Below, piece after piece: positions 2,194-15,282 of a stretch of 15,358 nucleotides of DNA. The position numbers and the translations under genes were made by a program. How positions within the stretch are numbered: position 1 is the stretch's first letter; each line of letters opens with the position of its first letter. The notes under the pieces are model-generated. The model did not search any database. It was not told the DNA's origin and saw only the letters and a program-made list of their open reading frames with translations. The DNA comes from an uncultured Oscillospiraceae bacterium (GTDB lineage Bacteria; Bacillota; Clostridia; Oscillospirales; Oscillospiraceae): positions 1-15,358 of the forward strand of contig CAJOFI010000003.1 in assembly GCA_905233595.1 (NCBI GenBank), read 5' to 3'.

Positions 2194-4626
2194 TTACCGG
2201 AAAAATTCTCCGAAGTACTGGTTCTTCTCCGCGTCGCTCACGTTGAAGCAGGTGCAGAGACGGTTGATGGTGTAGTTGCGCCAGTTTTTGTCAATGATCC
2301 AGTTGCGCAGGCCGTTGACCTCGTTGTGCCAGCGCTCCATCGTCAGATCCCAGCGCTCGCGGTCGCGGGGCATTTCGGGCTCGAGCAGCGCCTCGTATTC
2401 GTCGATCTTTCTGAGGACGTAGTCGTTGTCAAACACCGTCCGGCAGAGCTCGGCGTAGCGGGTGAAGACCTTGTCGCGGAAGGTCGGGTTGTAGGAGAAG
2501 TTCGCGTACAGGGTCGGCATCTGGTTGCCGGAGTTGTTCTTGCCGTAGACCAGGGTCGTAAAGCTCGCCCAGTCGAAGTAGAACGCCCAGTCCATGTCGT
2601 AGTACACCAGCTCCCACTTGCCGCCGCTCTCCGGCGAGCGGTAGACCTTGAGGTTGCCCTGGGTGTCGGTGTTGGCGCTGTAGCTTTCAAAGAGCAGCCA
2701 GTCGATGAGGCTGTCCATGTTGAAGACCTTGTCCACCTCGTCGTAGCACTCGGCCTCGCGCGTGTTGTGGTGCGCGGTGTAGCTCACGAGATCCATGATG
2801 TCAGTGCCGAGGGCGAAGGGCGCCTTCATGTACTCCACGCTGTCCACGTCCACCCCGGCGTTGGAGGCGTAGTACTGGCGGCTGATGTCCTCCTTGAGGC
2901 AGTAGACGCCCCAGTAGCGCCCGTTGAGGTAGAGGATGCAGTATTTGCTGGCCTGGGTGTAGAGGGAATCCGAGGCCTCGGCGCAGAGATCCTGGAACAG
3001 CTCGTTGCGAAATTCCGAGAAGGTGTAGTCCTGCCCCGCGCGGATGGAGAGGGATTCAAACTCGTCCACGCCGTTGCCGAAGATGTCCACGCCCTCGAGC
3101 ATGCCGCCGTAGCGGCCGGAGAACTTCACGCCCATGCTCTTTTTCGGCAGCTCCCGGCTCGTCCAGCCCTTGATGCCGATGCTGCAATCATGGTTGAAGA
3201 CGGTCTCGCCGTTTTCAAACATCGTGAGGTTCGCGCCCTGCTTGCGCACCTTGTTGCCCTTGTTGTAGATCGTGGTGAAGTAGCCGGGGTCGTCGGTCGT
3301 AAGGCTCAGCACGGGCAGAACGTGGTTCTCGTTCACGATGAAGCTGAAGCTCGCCGGGCGGCTCGTAAGGCAGCCATCCTCCCGCGCGATCGCGCGGATC
3401 ACCGTCGTCTGCGTGACGGAGAGCGGCTCGGTGTAGAGCGGGGAGGCGAGGGTCGGCAGACTCCCGTCGAGCGTGTAGTGGATCTCCCCCGGGGAGGAGA
3501 GCGCCACGCTCAGCCCCTCGCAGTTGTCGTACACGCCCTCCGCCGTGAGGCTCGTCGGGCGCGCGCTGATGCGGCGGCTGCCGTTTGCGTTCGCGCTGTG
3601 GGGCGTGGGCGTCTCAAAGTAGAAGAAGCCCGCCTGCCCGTCCATGCGCCCCATACTGCCCTCCACGGGAATGTCGTGCAGGGCGATATAGTCGCAGAGC
3701 GCGCCCGCGCCGTCGAAGAGGTAGAGCTGCTCCGAGGCGGCGTCGAGCGAGAAGCCCGTGTTGCGCGCCGAGGCGTCCTTCTCCCCGTCGCAGCGCAGCA
3801 GCAGCTCCTCCCCCGGGGCGAGCGTCACGTCCGGCAGGGGATAACGCTGCGGGTCGCTGAATTTGTCCGTCAGCGTGTAGCCCGGCAGGTACAGGCTCTC
3901 CCCGGAGACGTTCTTGAGCGTCACGAAGTCGAACATCTCCTCGTTTTCAATGGGGGTCGCCTTGTTGGAGACCATGACCTCCTCGATGCGCAGGAGGCTC
4001 GGCTCCTCGCGGTAGGCGCAGAGGCTCTCATAGCTCTCCGCCGTGTTGGGAAAGCCCGGCGTCGGGTAGGAGCAGAGCGTGAAGCCCTCCTCCGTGCGGA
4101 TCTGGGAGAGATCCGCCGCCTCGACGCAGACCGCCGCGTCCTGCACTTCGCCGTTGGGATCGACCAGCACCAGCGTCTCCCCGTCGGAGACGGAGAAGAG
4201 CGGCTCCCCCAGCGGAATGAGCATGATGGCGCCCGCAGGCAGTTCCTGCGCGGAGAAGGCGCGACGCCCGCCCACCTCCTTGTCGGACAGCGTCCAGCCC
4301 TCGAGCGGCACCGGCGCGTCGGAGACGTTCTCGATCTCCACCCAGTCGGGAAAGGCGCCGTTTAAGAGCACGGCGGCCTTGTTCTTCGCCATCAGCTCGG
4401 AGATGCGCAGAAGCCCGTCGTAATTGACGCTCGGCGTCGGCTCGGGTGTCGGTTCGGACGCGGCTTCCGGCTCGCCGGGCAGGGCGCCCACAGACGCAAA
4501 AGGCGCCGAGGGCTCGCCCGGCGCCCCGTCAGGGATCGCGGAGCGGGGCGTACAGCCGAAGAGCAGCACCATCAGCGTAAACAGGCTCGCAAGGAGCGCA
4601 AGTAAAATTTTCTTTATCTTTCTCAT
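2194..4626 (-). CDS. CotH-like surface lipoprotein with lamin-tail and chitobiase-type domains
   Basis: An 810-aa exported lipoprotein. The N-terminus MRKIKKILLALLASLF is a signal peptide ending in the lipobox LLFGC (Cys25), followed by a Pro/Glu-rich linker (about 27-68). Then come two lamin-tail-like beta domains (about 70-190 and 209-345, each with an E(I/L)xN or LKNVS core and PGYTLTD/GWTLSD), a chitobiase/hexosaminidase C-terminal-type beta domain (about 355-430, IHYTLDGSLPT), and a CotH kinase-like domain (about 440-760) with YLNGRYWGVYCLKEDI and the acidic YYDMDWAF motif at 675-682. CotH of Bacillus is an atypical protein kinase that phosphorylates spore coat proteins. In this architecture, common in gut Clostridia, the target is unknown, and a role at the cell surface or on polysaccharide is inference. 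It is the first gene of a pair with the PAP2 phosphatase. No Shine-Dalgarno precedes it; see its promoter. Confidence 0.9.
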   Translation of the reverse strand: MRKIKKILLALLASLFTLMVLLFGCTPRSAIPDGAPGEPSAPFASVGALPGEPEAASEPTPEPTPSVNYDGLLRISELMAKNKAAVLLNGAFPDWVEIENVSDAPVPLEGWTLSDKEVGGRRAFSAQELPAGAIMLIPLGEPLFSVSDGETLVLVDPNGEVQDAAVCVEAADLSQIRTEEGFTLCSYPTPGFPNTAESYESLCAYREEPSLLRIEEVMVSNKATPIENEEMFDFVTLKNVSGESLYLPGYTLTDKFSDPQRYPLPDVTLAPGEELLLRCDGEKDASARNTGFSLDAASEQLYLFDGAGALCDYIALHDIPVEGSMGRMDGQAGFFYFETPTPHSANANGSRRISARPTSLTAEGVYDNCEGLSVALSSPGEIHYTLDGSLPTLASPLYTEPLSVTQTTVIRAIAREDGCLTSRPASFSFIVNENHVLPVLSLTTDDPGYFTTIYNKGNKVRKQGANLTMFENGETVFNHDCSIGIKGWTSRELPKKSMGVKFSGRYGGMLEGVDIFGNGVDEFESLSIRAGQDYTFSEFRNELFQDLCAEASDSLYTQASKYCILYLNGRYWGVYCLKEDISRQYYASNAGVDVDSVEYMKAPFALGTDIMDLVSYTAHHNTREAECYDEVDKVFNMDSLIDWLLFESYSANTDTQGNLKVYRSPESGGKWELVYYDMDWAFYFDWASFTTLVYGKNNSGNQMPTLYANFSYNPTFRDKVFTRYAELCRTVFDNDYVLRKIDEYEALLEPEMPRDRERWDLTMERWHNEVNGLRNWIIDKNWRNYTINRLCTCFNVSDAEKNQYFGEFFR

Positions 4627-8400: not shown

Positions 8401-8436
8401 AAAAAACCTCCCGTTCAGCCGAACGGGAGGTTTTTT
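8401..8436. terminator. Bidirectional terminator between rplA and spoIID
   Basis: AAAAAACCTCCCGTTC (8401-8416) pairs perfectly with 8421-8436 around AGCC. The stem is flanked by A6 and T6, so it serves the plus-strand rplA transcript and the minus-strand spoIID transcript alike. Confidence 0.95.
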
Positions 8437-8439
8437 CGC

Positions 8440-8490
8440 GGTCAGTGGTCACTGACCAGTGGCCACTGACTACTGGCCACTGGCCACTAA
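8440..8490. repeat. Clustered CAGTGG/CCACTG palindromic repeat overlapping the spoIID 3' end
   Basis: Overlapping small palindromes run through this stretch: GGTCAGTG/CACTGACC (8440-8447 and 8450-8457), CAGTGGCCACTG (8457-8468), then TGACTACTGGCCACTGGCC. The units are variants of AGTGGYCA in both directions. It shares AGTGGTCA, ACTGACCA and TGACTACTG with the 1427-1500 region. Bases 8470-8490 also encode the end of the SpoIID-like protein. Confidence 0.75.
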
Positions 8491-11034: not shown

Positions 11035-11238
11035 ATGACGACAAAGGAAATTTCGCGGCTGGTGGTGCTGCTTGCGGTGCTGGTGTTCGGCTTTGGGCTG
11101 ATCGTGAAGCTCATCCAGGGCACGGCGGGTCTCGTGGGCAGCCTCTTCAATCTGATCCTCGGCATCGTGGTCGCGATGGCGCTGGTGTGCATCGTGATCT
11201 GGATGTTCTGGTACGCGAGCAAAAAGAGGAAAAAGTGA
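11035..11238 (+). CDS. Small two-helix membrane protein, unknown function
   Basis: A 67-aa protein with two hydrophobic helices (about residues 9-27 and 37-60) joined by a short Gly-rich turn, and a basic tail ASKKRKK, so both ends probably face the cytoplasm. I recognise no family. The ATG at 11035 is preceded by AGGTGA inside the end of the previous gene; a GTG three codons upstream overlaps that site and is less likely. The stop TGA shares its A with the ATG of the acetyltransferase (TGATG), which implies coupled translation. Confidence 0.72.
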   Translation: MTTKEISRLVVLLAVLVFGFGLIVKLIQGTAGLVGSLFNLILGIVVAMALVCIVIWMFWYASKKRKK

Positions 11239-11874
11239 TGGAAGCCTGGACGCTCGTGCGCCCCACGGAGGCGCATCTCGAGGAGGTCGCCGCCTATCGC
11301 GCGGCCTTTCTCGCCGCCGGGGACTCCATGGACGGCGCCGGCCCTCTGCGCCGCTTTGAAAACCCGGCGGACTGGCTGCGGCAGCTTCGGCTCTATGAAG
11401 ACCCCGCCACCGTGCCGGAGGGTCTGGTGCAGGCCACGCAGTTTCTCTGCCTGCGCGAGAGCGACGGGCGCGTGCTGGGCATGCTGCAGCTGCGGCATGA
11501 GCTGAACGACACCCTTGCAAAATACGCCGGGCACATCGGCTACTCCGTCCGCCCGGACGAGCGCAGAAAGGGCGTCGCGCGCTGGATGCTGCGCGAGGCG
11601 CTGTCCTATTGCCGCGCGCTGGGGCTTGCGCGGGTGCTGATCACCTGCCACACGGGAAACGAGGGCAGCCGCCGCACGATCCTCTCTAAGGAAGTGCTGA
11701 TTAATCCAGCTTCGGCGTCTACCGGCAAATTTCCGCCGGCTCTGCGTTGCAAAAGTTTGAAATACACAAAGTATTCCTGCACTTTAGCGCTTCCCTAACG
11801 GCGGCGTCTATGAGAGCACGGTCTACAAGCCGGACGACAACGAGTGGCTGGAGCGGTACTGGATCACGTTGTAG
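11238..11874 (+). pseudogene. GNAT N-acetyltransferase disrupted by a 105-bp insertion
   Basis: Residues 1-150 are a GNAT acetyltransferase. Typical parts are LVRPTEAHLEEVAAYRAAFL, a core strand GHIGYSVRP and the acetyl-CoA loop RRKGVA (109-114) followed by WMLREALSYC, then LGLARVLITCHTGNEGSRRT. At codon 151 the frame runs into an inserted element and ends after 36 foreign residues at TAA 11796-11798. Deleting 11690-11798 (element plus one copy of CTAA) joins TCT-AA to C and restores NGGVYESTVYKP through to YWITL and TAG at 11872-11874. That gives a 175-aa protein with the usual ending of the family. The present product lacks the last strands that shape the active site and is probably inactive or unstable. 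The substrate is unknown. It was the fourth gene of the operon. Confidence 0.88.
11690..11794. mobile_element. 105-bp MITE-like element inserted in the GNAT gene
   Basis: The element is bounded by a 4-bp direct repeat CTAA (11686-11689 and 11795-11798), the likely target site duplication. Its ends are imperfect inverted repeats: left GGAAGTGCTGA, right (reverse complement) GGAAGCGCTAA, 9 of 11 identical. Inside are a small hairpin CCGGC/GCCGG (11722-11726 and 11735-11739) and AATAC/GTATT (11761-11765 and 11771-11775). It has no coding capacity and is more AT-rich than the surrounding gene. A non-autonomous element moved by a transposase elsewhere is the natural reading; the parent family is unknown to me. 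Confidence 0.85.
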
Positions 11875-11964: not shown

Positions 11965-12015
11965 TATAAACAGAGGCTGTGAAAAAACGGAGTTTTTTCA
12001 CAGCCTCTGTTTATA
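11965..12015. terminator. Long hairpin terminator between the GNAT remnant and the 40-aa ORF
   Basis: Arms 11965-11988 and 11992-12015 are a perfect 24-bp inverted repeat around GGA. The inner part is GGCTGTGAAAAAAC and the outer part TATAAACAGA. It lies between convergent transcription units, after the broken GNAT gene on plus and after the 40-aa ORF on minus, and can serve both. Bases 11875-11964 before it hold no gene; only a small palindrome GAAACGGA/TCCGTTTC (11936-11952) is visible there. Confidence 0.8.
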
Positions 12016-12286: not shown

Positions 12287-13624
12287 TTAATTTTTGTGCA
12301 AACCGTCATTTTTTCCAAGCACCACGTTCAGTTCCGTGATGCCGTAGTAGGAAAAGAGGGCGAGCGCCGCCGCGTTCAGTCGCTCCCCGCAGACCGCGAT
12401 GGGCACGGCGGGCGGGCAGCTCACGCAGGGCGAGGCCAGCACCCGGCCGAGGCATTGCGCCGTGGGCAGGGTCTCGAAGGGGGCGAGCAGCGCCTCGCGC
12501 GGCGTGAGCACGGCCTCCGCCGCTTCGCGCTTCGGCGGCGCGTCCGAAATCGGCGCGCGCGCGGGCAGGCGCAGCAGAAAGTCCGTCAGCTGCTCCAAGC
12601 CCTCCGTCTCCGGCGTGAGCATGAGCACGAGCTGATCCGGGTCGGCAAACTCCGGCACCATCCCCGCCTCCGTGAGCAGGTCAGAGAGCGCCTCGCCGGT
12701 GTAGCCCCGCGCTTTGGGCAGCAGCGTGAGCTTCAGGGCCTCCGTGCCGCAGGTCTGCCAGCCCGCCGCGGCAAGACGCGCCTTCGCTTTGCCCTCGCGG
12801 ATGCGCGCGGGGTAATCGCCCGCGAGCAGGGGGTTGAGCGCGTCCAGCGATTGCAGCAGCAGATAGGAGGGGCTCGTGCTCGCAAAGAGCGCCATGGCCT
12901 GCTCGGCCATGTTCAGCAGCGCCGCAGGGCAGCCCTTCGCGAGGTGGAGATAGGCGCAGCCGGTCAGCGCGGGCAGGGTCTTATGCGCGGAATCGCAGCA
13001 TAGGTCGGCGCCGCGATCCAGCGGGTGGCGCGAGGGGGCGAGGAATTTCAGATAGGCGCCGTGGGCGTTGTCCACCAGCAGCAGCGCCCCGTGCGCGTGG
13101 CAGAGCGCGGCGACGGGCGTCAGATCCAGCTCGTTTCCGAGATAATCGGGGCTCGTGAGATAGACCGCCGTGGGCTTCTCCTCCGCGGCAAAGAGCGCCT
13201 CCAGCTCCGCAGTCACCGGCGCGGAGGACAGCAGCGCCTCCCCGCAGCCGAGCCAGCGGATGGGCAGATCGAGCAGCGCCGCGCCCTCCAGAAAGACGCG
13301 GTGCGCGTTGCGCCCGGCGGCGACAAGCGGTTTTTTCCCGCTGAGGAGCGCGTATTGCCGCGCAAGCTGCAGCATGGCGCGGATGCAGAGGGACGAGCCC
13401 TCGGTGGAATAGAGCGTTCTCGCGCTGCCGAAGAGGGCGGAGGCGTTCTCCTCGCTCTCGCGGATGATGCCGCGCGCGTGGTACAGCACGTCCGCGCCGG
13501 GGATCTCGGTGATGTCCAGCGCCTCACAGCCGAGGCGCGGCCTTCCCTTGTGCCCCGGCATATGCAGCCGGAGGGGGGCTTCCCGCGCGTAGCGCCGCGC
13601 GAAGTCGCAGATGGGGCTGTTCAT
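12287..13624 (-). CDS. PLP-dependent Orn/Lys/Arg decarboxylase-family enzyme
   Basis: A 445-aa fold-type I PLP enzyme of the short decarboxylase group (like YaaO of Bacillus, about 480 aa). The N-terminus RLHMPGHKG (19-27) is the family hallmark. ADVLYHARGII and the PLP-phosphate loop STEGSS (73-78) follow, then LLLVDNAHGAYLKF with D185 (pyridine nitrogen) and H188, and DSAHKTLPALTG with the Schiff-base Lys K215. The C-terminal small domain (about 350-445) ends in a GITELNVVLGK segment. The reaction is probably decarboxylation of a basic amino acid, but the substrate cannot be read, and some relatives lack known activity. ATG at 13624 overlaps the scfB stop (ATGA), so it is made together with the SCIFF maturase. 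Confidence 0.88.
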   Translation of the reverse strand: MNSPICDFARRYAREAPLRLHMPGHKGRPRLGCEALDITEIPGADVLYHARGIIRESEENASALFGSARTLYSTEGSSLCIRAMLQLARQYALLSGKKPLVAAGRNAHRVFLEGAALLDLPIRWLGCGEALLSSAPVTAELEALFAAEEKPTAVYLTSPDYLGNELDLTPVAALCHAHGALLLVDNAHGAYLKFLAPSRHPLDRGADLCCDSAHKTLPALTGCAYLHLAKGCPAALLNMAEQAMALFASTSPSYLLLQSLDALNPLLAGDYPARIREGKAKARLAAAGWQTCGTEALKLTLLPKARGYTGEALSDLLTEAGMVPEFADPDQLVLMLTPETEGLEQLTDFLLRLPARAPISDAPPKREAAEAVLTPREALLAPFETLPTAQCLGRVLASPCVSCPPAVPIAVCGERLNAAALALFSYYGITELNVVLGKNDGLHKN

Positions 13625-15003
13625 GCCCGGCGCTGCCTGTCGAGCTGCCGCGCGATGGCGAGCATGATGGCGCACTCCATGCGCTTGCGGAACAGCTCGC
13701 AGCCCGCCTCATACACGCCGGTGATCGCGCCGGTGGCGTGGTAGGCGTTCGCCGCGCAGCCGCCCGCGCAGTAGAGCCGCGCCCAGCAATCCCGGCAGGC
13801 GGGCTTCTGGTAGACGTTGCAGGCGGCGAATTCGCCCTGCACGGCGGGGTTATCCAGCCCCTTCCAGATGTCGCCCAGCTTGAACCTTTCGTCGCCCACG
13901 AACTGGTGGCAGGGGTAGAGGTCGCCCCAGGGCGTGACCGCCATGTACTCGGTGCCGGAGCCGCAGCCGGAGATGCGCTTGTAGATGCAAGGGCCGCCGG
14001 TGAGGGCGAGCATGTAGTGGTAGAAGGTGAAGGGTCTGCCCTCCCGGTCGCGCTCGAGCATCAGCTCGGCCAGCTCCTCATACTGCCGCATGACGAGCGC
14101 GCGATCCTCCTCGGTCAGGGCGGAGGGATCGTCCGGCGCGCAGACCACCGGCTCCATGCTCAGCTCCGTGAAGCCAAGCGCGAGCATCTGGCGGATGTCC
14201 GCGAGGAAATCCGGGTTGTAGTGCGTGAAGGTGCCGCGCATGTAGTAGCCCTTGCCGCCGCGCGCCGCCACCAGCTTCTGGAACTTCGGCACGATGCGCT
14301 CCCAGCTCCCGTTCCCGGCGTAGTCCACGCGGAAGCGGTCGTGCACCTCCTTGCGCCCGTCGAGGCTCAGCACGACATTGCTCATCTCCCGGTTGCAGAA
14401 GTCGATCACGTCGTCGTCGATGAGCACGCCGTTCGTGGTGAGGGTGAAGCGGAAGTTCTTGTGCGCGTCCTTCTCGATGCTGCGCGCGTAGGCGACCAGA
14501 TCCTTCACCACCCGGAAGTTCATCAGCGGCTCGCCGCCGAAGAAGTCCACCTCGAGGTTGCGGCGGCTGCCGGAATGGGCGACGAGGAAATCCAGCGCCT
14601 GCTTGCCGACCTCGAAGGACATGACGGCACGCTCACCGTTATACTTGCCCTGGCTGGCGAAGCAATAGGAGCAGTTAAGGTTGCAGGTGTGCGCGACGTG
14701 CAGGCACAGCGCCTTGATGACGCCGCCGCTCTTTTCCTTGAAGCGCCCCGCCATCGGCTCAAAGGTGTCCGGCGTGAAGAGCCGCCCCTGCTCCTTGAGC
14801 GAGAGCACCTGCTCATAGCAGCGCTCGATCTCCCCACGCTCCAGGGCGGGATAGCTTGCCTGCAGGCTCTCGATTGCGTCCTCCCGGCTCTTCTGCTCAA
14901 AGAGCGCGATGCAGTCGTAGGCCAGGTCGTCAACCACGTGCAGCGCGCCGGAGCAGACGTCCAGCACGACATTGTAGCCGCCGAGCTTGTATTGATGGAT
15001 CAT
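13621..15003 (-). CDS. scfB: Radical SAM SPASM maturase of SCIFF peptide (thioether cross-link forming)
   Basis: A 460-aa enzyme that joins cysteine sulfur to alpha-carbons in the SCIFF peptide, as shown for CteB of Acetivibrio thermocellus. Residues about 1-85 form a RiPP recognition-type domain (HQYKLGGYNVVLDV, VVDDLAYDCIALF). The radical SAM cluster motif is C107-X3-C111-X2-C114 (CNLNCSYC), with FFGGEPLMNF (154-163) for SAM binding. The C-terminal SPASM/twitch part has cysteines at 339, 347, 365, 395, 403, 406, 412, 416 and 435 (SGCGSG, YPCHQFVG, CRDCWARLYCAGGC), enough for two auxiliary [4Fe-4S] clusters. GGGAG 9 nt before the ATG at 15003 is the ribosome binding site. It lies just downstream of its substrate gene. 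Confidence 0.96.
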   Translation of the reverse strand: MIHQYKLGGYNVVLDVCSGALHVVDDLAYDCIALFEQKSREDAIESLQASYPALERGEIERCYEQVLSLKEQGRLFTPDTFEPMAGRFKEKSGGVIKALCLHVAHTCNLNCSYCFASQGKYNGERAVMSFEVGKQALDFLVAHSGSRRNLEVDFFGGEPLMNFRVVKDLVAYARSIEKDAHKNFRFTLTTNGVLIDDDVIDFCNREMSNVVLSLDGRKEVHDRFRVDYAGNGSWERIVPKFQKLVAARGGKGYYMRGTFTHYNPDFLADIRQMLALGFTELSMEPVVCAPDDPSALTEEDRALVMRQYEELAELMLERDREGRPFTFYHYMLALTGGPCIYKRISGCGSGTEYMAVTPWGDLYPCHQFVGDERFKLGDIWKGLDNPAVQGEFAACNVYQKPACRDCWARLYCAGGCAANAYHATGAITGVYEAGCELFRKRMECAIMLAIARQLDRQRRA

Positions 15004-15135: not shown

Positions 15136-15282
15136 TTACTTCTCCGCGTTCTCGCACTGCTGGTTGGCAATGCCGCAGCTCGTCTTGCAGGCGGACTGGC
15201 AAGAGGTCTGGCACTCGCCGCAGCCGCCGTTCATCGCGCTCTGGCAGAGATCACGGGTCTCGATCGTCATGATGTGTTCCAT
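15136..15282 (-). CDS. scfA: SCIFF precursor peptide (six-cysteine ranthipeptide), seven-Cys variant
   Basis: A 48-aa ribosomal peptide, substrate of the adjacent ScfB. The leader MEHIMTIETRDL matches the family start MKHIKT-like. The core GGCGECQTSCQSACKTSC with NQQCEN is diagnostic of SCIFF. The canonical six cysteines are C21, C24, C28, C32, C36 and C43, each a potential donor for a thioether to a nearby residue. An additional Cys13 lies in the leader half. No transporter or protease gene is seen beside it, as is usual for SCIFF. GGAGGG lies at 15287-15292, 4 nt before the ATG at 15282. The conserved leader supports this start over the in-frame Met5. Confidence 0.97.
   Translation of the reverse strand: MEHIMTIETRDLCQSAMNGGCGECQTSCQSACKTSCGIANQQCENAEK

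Follow-up and report, generated by a model that had tools for sequence, protein, structure and literature searches.

An Acetyltransferase Gene Probably Knocked Out by a Small IS5-Type MITE from a Hairpin Family with a Conserved Centre

Introduction

How did an acetyltransferase gene of an uncultured Oscillospiraceae bacterium lose its end, and what is the 105-bp sequence that now separates the gene from the lost part? The gene lies in a window of 15,358 nucleotides (the whole stretch of DNA analysed here), which is contig C3 of a draft genome of 1.73 Mb in 264 contigs, 85% complete with 6% contamination, hereafter the own MAG. Taking what was observed together with what we infer, we hold it to be very likely that insertion of an IS5-type MITE cut the GNAT acetyltransferase gene, and that this MITE is a member of a hairpin family with a conserved centre.

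Other features of the window are recorded here in their own right: a SCIFF peptide maturase gene at 13621-15003 (-) (TIGR03974, 736.6 bits), a small Cys-rich frame upstream of it at about 15140-15280 (-) that resembles a SCIFF precursor by eye, and a perfect 32-bp inverted repeat at 1427-1491 with one base between the arms and no obvious T tract.

Results and Discussion

The Interrupted Gene and Its Empty Site

The native part of the gene, codons 1-150, occupies 11238..11687 on the + strand. It is assigned to the GNAT acetyltransferases by its homologues and by PF00583 and PF13302, both above the gathering score (PF00583 on the 150-aa part: 46.1 bits, cut-off 20.7, E 6.9e-12). No NCBIfam model reached its cut-off with the 150-aa part or with the intact homologues P0002 and P0009; the NCBIfam matches of these two are weak, far under cut-off, and include resistance-type acetyltransferases. 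The insert itself lies at 11690..11794 (+), between CTAA at 11686..11689 (+) and a second CTAA at 11795..11798 (+), and together with one CTAA it amounts to 109 bp, which is not a multiple of 3. The interrupted frame (11238..11798, +; also listable from an upstream GTG as 11187-11798) counts 186 aa, 150 native and 36 read from the element, and its stop is the TAA of the right CTAA. Behind the insert, the displaced native C-terminus (NGGVYESTVYKPDDNEWLERYWITL) is found out of frame at 11797..11874 (+), as the sequence and its comparison with homologues and with the empty site indicate: 25 codons, open over 11797-11871 and alignable with the C-termini of homologues, are followed by the stop TAG at 11872-11874. 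Direct reading bore out the statement of the earlier note that the frame breaks at codon 151 and that its lost end is intact behind the element. Further downstream, at 11965..12015 (+), inverted-repeat listing and the sequence itself reveal a perfect 24-bp hairpin, likely an intrinsic terminator; the insertion would thus sit in the last gene before the terminator.

Searching 102 genomes of the genus with the gene (E <= 1e-40) gave hits in 25 genomes, including the own MAG, and 25 places outside the own MAG, of which 21 were inspected (G054:C69, G041, G062 and G074 were left out). In all 21 the GNAT frame is uninterrupted and has the native ending, at 49-87% identity. The nearest locus, in genome G060 (87%), reads ATCCTTTCTAACGGCGGCGTCTATGA with a single CTAA and represents the exact empty site that had been predicted; relatives sharing the 186-aa frame, which the earlier note had named as the observation that would count against an insertion, do not occur among the inspected loci. 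A conserved alternative C-terminus, tried as a candidate reading, was ruled out by the same 21 loci.

The protein database holds 1765 homologues, the best 120 of which were listed and 13 sequences compared. Eleven of the 13 possess the native ending NGG..., to which the displaced tail of the window aligns. P0001 (147 aa, 99% identical) ends three codons ahead of the insertion point and is probably a partial gene at a contig end, while P0066 diverges near residue 136 into unrelated sequence and does not have the native ending.

These data bear on two other readings of the locus. An assembly artefact, in which a repeat was misjoined into an intact gene of the own MAG, would fit the contamination of this draft genome, its contigs ending in these repeats, and P0001, with which a second assembly may also have failed at this point. 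However, a misjoin is unlikely to produce a precise 4-bp duplication, an exact empty site in G060 and two intact gene halves, and we regard an artefact as extremely improbable. The insertion might also have been domesticated, the 186-aa chimera being a working acetyltransferase with an element-derived tail, in the manner of Rickettsia palindromic elements in working proteins. The frame does run on across the element and acquires a stop, small mobile sequences inserted in frame are known (PMC2229807), and the native ending is likewise missing from P0066, 1 of the 13 homologues compared, although P0066 departs at an earlier point and into unrelated sequence. The length of the insert, however, is not divisible by 3, conserved residues at the C-terminus are lost through it, and an element-derived tail is present in none of the 13 compared homologues (of 120 listed and 1765 found); a domesticated chimera is therefore very unlikely.

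An insertion that disrupted the gene remains the preferred reading. The 109-bp insertion would have replaced the final 25 residues by 36 that the element encodes. Of the lost residues, G152, G153, V159, Y171 and L175 show no variation across 35 homologues, while N151, W172 and others vary very little. The chimeric 186-aa protein, deprived of these conserved GNAT residues, is judged from its sequence to be probably inactive, and the acetyltransferase gene at the end of its gene cluster was probably knocked out by a small IS5-type MITE. Ribosomal bypass of the insert was considered and dropped, since the junction triplets TCT and CCT do not match.

Copies in the Own MAG and Their Target Duplications

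With the 105-bp insert as query, at least 48 matching places were found in the own MAG, and with a full copy at least 56; both counts are lower bounds, 40 of about 140 candidates having been scored per query. The second copy on which the earlier note had made its reading depend is thus present many times over, in the own MAG as well as in the genus. The terminal repeat occurs at 28 places in the own MAG, and in 25 of the 28 surrounding loci, some of them overlapping, the core of the element is no more than 260 bp away. A second element type, with ends GGAACTGTTCC, gave at least 48 matches in the own MAG (40 of 159 candidates scored).

One full first-type copy, on contig C145, has a length of 159 bp. 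Comparison with such copies reveals what the window alone does not disclose, namely that the insert of 105 bp derives by shortening from a palindromic element of about 159 bp. Repeat comparison within the own MAG identifies the insert as an internally deleted MITE with a left terminal inverted repeat GGAAGTGCTGATTAATCC at 11690..11707 (+), which resembles the ends of an IS5-type element (L320, see below). The conserved central core of the family, TTTGAAATACACAAAGTATTCCTGC (25 nt), lies at 11756..11780 (+) according to repeat comparisons and to the covariance model of the family, which matches the window at 11733-11804. At 11786..11794 (+), comparison by eye with the full copy L003 shows the remnant of the right terminal inverted repeat, AGCGCTTCC, the right arm being mostly deleted. 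Full copies elsewhere carry terminal inverted repeats, and the window copy has 9 nt left of the right one; it may therefore have been shortened after its insertion, as such a remnant allows. The right arm is mostly missing from three copies in total, that of the window (105 bp) and two of 103 bp each (L002 and L004), with three different junctions.

Eleven copies of the own MAG were listed after pre-filtering for full or near duplications, and 10 of these 11 have identical YTAR flanks: CTAA, TTAG or CTAG. A sample free of this filter was drawn from five other genomes, in which 40 sites, a subset of a longer list, were chosen by the terminal repeat only. They yielded 31 paired elements, mostly 159-161 bp long, and 21 of the 31 have identical flanking 4-mers, although the duplication was not used in the pairing; ten shifted comparisons as a control gave 0 or 1 of 31 each. 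Thirteen of the 21 duplications are YTAR and eight are not, and 10 of the 31 pairs show no identical 4-mers. CTAA had been taken for a target duplication from the window alone, and this was right, as identical 4-mers also flank other copies. The element is short, holds no transposase, is present in many copies and has a target duplication, which are the features by which we recognise a MITE. The 4-bp YTAR duplication taken as the mark of IS5-group origin was found as CTAA, TTAG and CTAG in own copies and in 13 of 21 cases elsewhere; IS5 uses the YTAR motif (PMC10359306).

A MITE of the TA type, from the IS630/Tc1-mariner group, might leave the same picture if only TA were duplicated and the adjacent C and A agreed by chance. 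TA does form the central two bases of CTAA, and the RUP element of pneumococci combines ends of the IS630 type with targets that contain TA (PMC2229807). Yet the outer bases agree as well in own copies (CTAA/CTAA, TTAG/TTAG, CTAG/CTAG), TA is absent from some duplications (TGAA, CTGT, CTTG), and the transposase within the element of similar ends is of IS5 type. We consider a TA-type MITE highly improbable and retain the IS5-type origin.

In two own copies (L005 and L008), the frame preceding the element terminates at the TAA of the left junction; in L005 this frame looks by eye like the C-terminus of an ABC transporter. As YTAR includes TAA and TAG, an insertion at this kind of target can spare the protein. 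Contigs C5, C8, C77, C127, C230 and C241 of the own MAG start within an element; these repeats probably contribute to its fragmentation. The L002 copy is adjoined by ACTGACCACTGGCCACT sequence, similar to dense, overlapping palindromes of the CAGTGGCCACTGAC type at 8435-8490 of the window, and sequences like CAGTGGCCACTGAC and ACTGACCACTGGCCACT are perhaps another class of repeats.

A Likely IS5-Type Carrier

A complete element in genome G015 (L320) reads TTAA-GGAAACACTGATTTAATCCGGCC ... ATTTATTCAGCGTTTCC-TTAA around a transposase of 331 aa. This transposase is 95% identical to one in G006 that belongs to the IS5 family (NF033581, 289.9 bits, cut-off 140); the G006 contig ends within the gene. 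Read inwards, the right end of the MITE, GGAAGCGCTGATTAAATCCGGC, is similar but not identical to the L320 end GGAAACACTGATTTAATCCGGCC, and is counted as an IS5-type end. More distant relatives of the transposase (L322, L323, L325 and L327; 46-49% identity) have ends of the GGCAACACCGC or GGCAATACCGC type. On both sides they are flanked by TTAA (L322), CTAA (L323) and TTAA (L325), and L327 has TTAG versus TTAA. Thus, among eight IS5-type loci, identical flanking 4-mers occur in four (L320, L322, L323, L325) and differing ones in L327, the flanks of L321, L324 and L326 not being assessable. Ends of the GGAACTGT type were found at none of the nine transposase loci scanned for them (L132, L209-L216).

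Relatives of the IS5-type transposase used as query occur in 14 of 102 genomes of the genus (E <= 1e-20). At the same threshold, the own MAG, 85% complete and in 264 contigs, gave no match; a helper of this genome would accordingly lie in the portion not assembled, have diverged or have been lost. The own MAG has one PF01609 match, IS4-like, on C39. As the sole candidate for a parent within the own MAG, this transposase was rejected, for it does not have these ends.

In our proposal, an IS5-group transposase supplied in trans would move the element by cut-and-paste, in the present case into TCT-CTAA-CGG. IS5-type transposases are most likely what moved the hairpin family.

Age of the Insertion

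The earlier note had called the insertion apparently recent on account of the undamaged tail. The tail is indeed open, with no stop; the conclusion drawn from it was too strong, as an intact tail is no demonstration of a recent insertion. Over 23 of the 25 tail codons, 8 of 69 nt differ from G060 (3 synonymous and 3 nonsynonymous codons), much like the body with 55 of 450 nt (23 synonymous and 19 nonsynonymous codons), and this divergence would probably be older than the insertion for the most part. Few random changes create stops, and a short stop-free stretch is for this reason weak evidence of age. The window copy is 97% identical to a full-length sibling over 105 aligned positions and is young, albeit not demonstrably brand new. 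Hence, the data lend weak support to a recent insertion, which is possible.

Core, Ends, and Breadth of the Hairpin Family

The element would be a shortened member of a large hairpin family with a conserved centre and with ends that go along with different IS5 transposases. The 22-mer core GAAATACACAAAGTATTCCTGC occurs in exact form in at least 102 stretches of named genomes. The 80 core-bearing records listed derive mostly from MAGs of uncultured Oscillospiraceae, Ruminococcaceae, Clostridia and Clostridiales, and judged by the sample names, many of these MAGs come from the guts of ruminants or other herbivores. By the rule used, 86 of 104 core sites in the 102 stretches have inverted ends, 31 with a 4-bp duplication, 10 with a 3-bp duplication and 45 with none or 2 bp; this scoring favoured duplications, and some low-end pairings are probably spurious. 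The ends vary in type (GGAAACGCTGA, GGCAACACCGCACA, GGAACCTCTGA, GTAAACGCTGA, GGAACTGT and others), and for two types matching IS5 elements were observed in the genus; most lengths are near 158-165 bp. Some of the duplication-free elements look old and are located at the same intergenic place in different genomes. The elements of L242, L263, L295 and L317 lie between genes that resemble rpmH and rnpA by eye, with no 4-bp duplication by the rule, which suggests either old shared insertions or a repeated target.

As these sites had been retrieved through the core itself, conservation was gauged a second time on elements fetched by their ends: 27 of 31 pairs carry the core within 6 mismatches of 25. 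In 25 such elements (length 155-180) plus one own copy, the core and the ends each have a mean identity of 0.96, and the arms one of 0.78; the value for the ends reflects their selection and that for the core is somewhat too high, four elements with no recognisable core having been excluded. Of 147 genomes of the order, 44 (the own MAG among them) have matches to a covariance model of 40 elements (E <= 1e-4), as do 27 of 86 genera, with rough E-values and 19 candidates scored per genome; at nine loci from other genomes in this search (L378-L386), between 0 and 6 of the 25 core positions are changed. Within the genus, a DNA search with one full copy gave matches in 41 of 61 genomes, own MAG included. 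Phage and plasmid collections held no match to one full copy; one exact 25-mer core occurs in a viral contig of IMG/VR (L376, 10050-10074).

A chimera in the own MAG (L008; G000:C2, about 2868-3010) combines a left arm of the first type with a second-type arm, the two meeting in the middle of the core. It shows that arms can be exchanged at the core, but does not thereby establish exchange as the source of end diversity. The near-constant length of the elements rather points to slow divergence of the ends along with their transposases.

Hairpin Structure and Strand

By a stricter rule, 66 elements were selected and thinned to 54; 15 of these, similar or doubtful by eye, were left out, and the remaining 39 were aligned together with L003 of the own MAG, giving 40 rows. 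For this one alignment, a hairpin of 43 pairs is predicted, with 89.5% of cells paired and 36 pairs changed on both sides. The covariation score, taken on the alignment from which the structure had also been predicted, is 0.515; 500 shuffles gave 0.145, and slid partners reached no more than 0.154. The six innermost pairs are invariant through the selection for an exact core, and the outer helix is favoured by the required matching ends. The two helices between these were not favoured by the choice of elements; in one, 14 of 15 pairs are changed on both sides and 87% of cells are paired, in the other 6 of 6 and 94%. Template switching can also give palindromic mobile elements such symmetry, and covariation alone is for this reason no proof of an RNA.

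Mismatches on the core strand are A-C in 87 and G-T in 31 cells (by pair 23 versus 7 with 13 ties, sign p 0.005). A-C on the core strand corresponds to G-U on the opposite one, which points to one strand. The strand opposite the core is the more stable one in 40 of 40 elements (means -81.9 versus -57.1) and in 26 of 26 elements (-87.0 versus -57.8), where the two sets share one own copy and the elements are related, such that the counts are not independent. Other results speak against a preferred strand: the consensus energy of a fresh reverse-strand alignment (-33.1) is weaker than that of the reverse-complemented forward alignment (-56.2; forward strand -27.1), the two strands of the shortened window copy are equal (-33.8 and -33.9), and orientation relative to adjacent genes is unbiased in the crude test below.

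An mRNA element oriented to neighbouring genes was rejected as a candidate, since a crude ORF test at the 70 of 104 core sites with enough flank revealed no bias: the 5'-side gene is on the same strand in 27 and on the opposite strand in 26 cases, the 3'-side gene in 22 and 31. No Rfam family reaches its gathering score in the window, and the full element retrieves only MIR904 (E 0.5, 16.8 bits, cut-off 80) and is thus no member of a known Rfam family.

Tentatively, and with rather less than even confidence, we propose that the insert of 105 bp belongs, in degenerate form, to an order-wide class of mobile hairpins in Oscillospirales-type gut bacteria. In such elements of about 160 nt, selection may act on the fold of a single strand, as RNA or as ssDNA, this strand being the one opposite the core as written here; a host or element factor might recognise the near-invariant apical core, while the terminal repeats would have changed repeatedly, with several IS5-type transposases as carriers.

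Comparison with Known Systems

The event itself has the form of an ordinary gene loss through a small mobile element, documented with its empty site. The hairpin family is apparently new to description: among the matches listed in the open-licence literature searched for Oscillospiraceae, Faecalibacterium, Ruminococcaceae, Clostridiales and related names, it is described nowhere, and a term search of the review PMC10969869 gave no hit for Clostridi-, Oscillospir- or Faecalibacter-. It would affect genome assembly, as contigs break inside its members, and gene annotation, through broken or chimeric C-termini and insertions at stop codons.

With REP/REPIN sequences the family shares abundant short palindromes. 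REPs, however, are 20-40 bp long and associated with tyrosine transposases (PMC3733652 and PMC2817692), and the present elements instead have IS5-type ends and target duplications. ERIC/IRU, Correia/NEMIS and RUP are likewise small palindromic mobile sequences between, and sometimes within, genes, and the Correia forms of 155 bp and 107 bp (PMC2229807) are close to the 159 and 105 bp found here. These families differ by their other hosts and by TA at the termini, as tabulated in PMC2229807, and are set apart here by description and by the lack of an Rfam match. Rickettsia palindromic elements (RPEs) also place a palindrome inside a protein gene with the frame open through it (again PMC2229807); they are described as in-frame fusions, whereas the present gene is shifted out of its frame and deprived of its native C-terminus.

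With the IS5-group MITEs the family has in common its inverted ends and high copy number, the absence of coding sequence, a 4-bp and mostly YTAR duplication, and ends like those of an IS5-type element. A strongly conserved 25-nt centre and a near-constant length across several types of terminal repeats are, to our knowledge, no feature of IS5 MITEs. A conserved hairpin with differing ends bears on whether MITEs are merely deleted IS copies or can be self-persisting structures.
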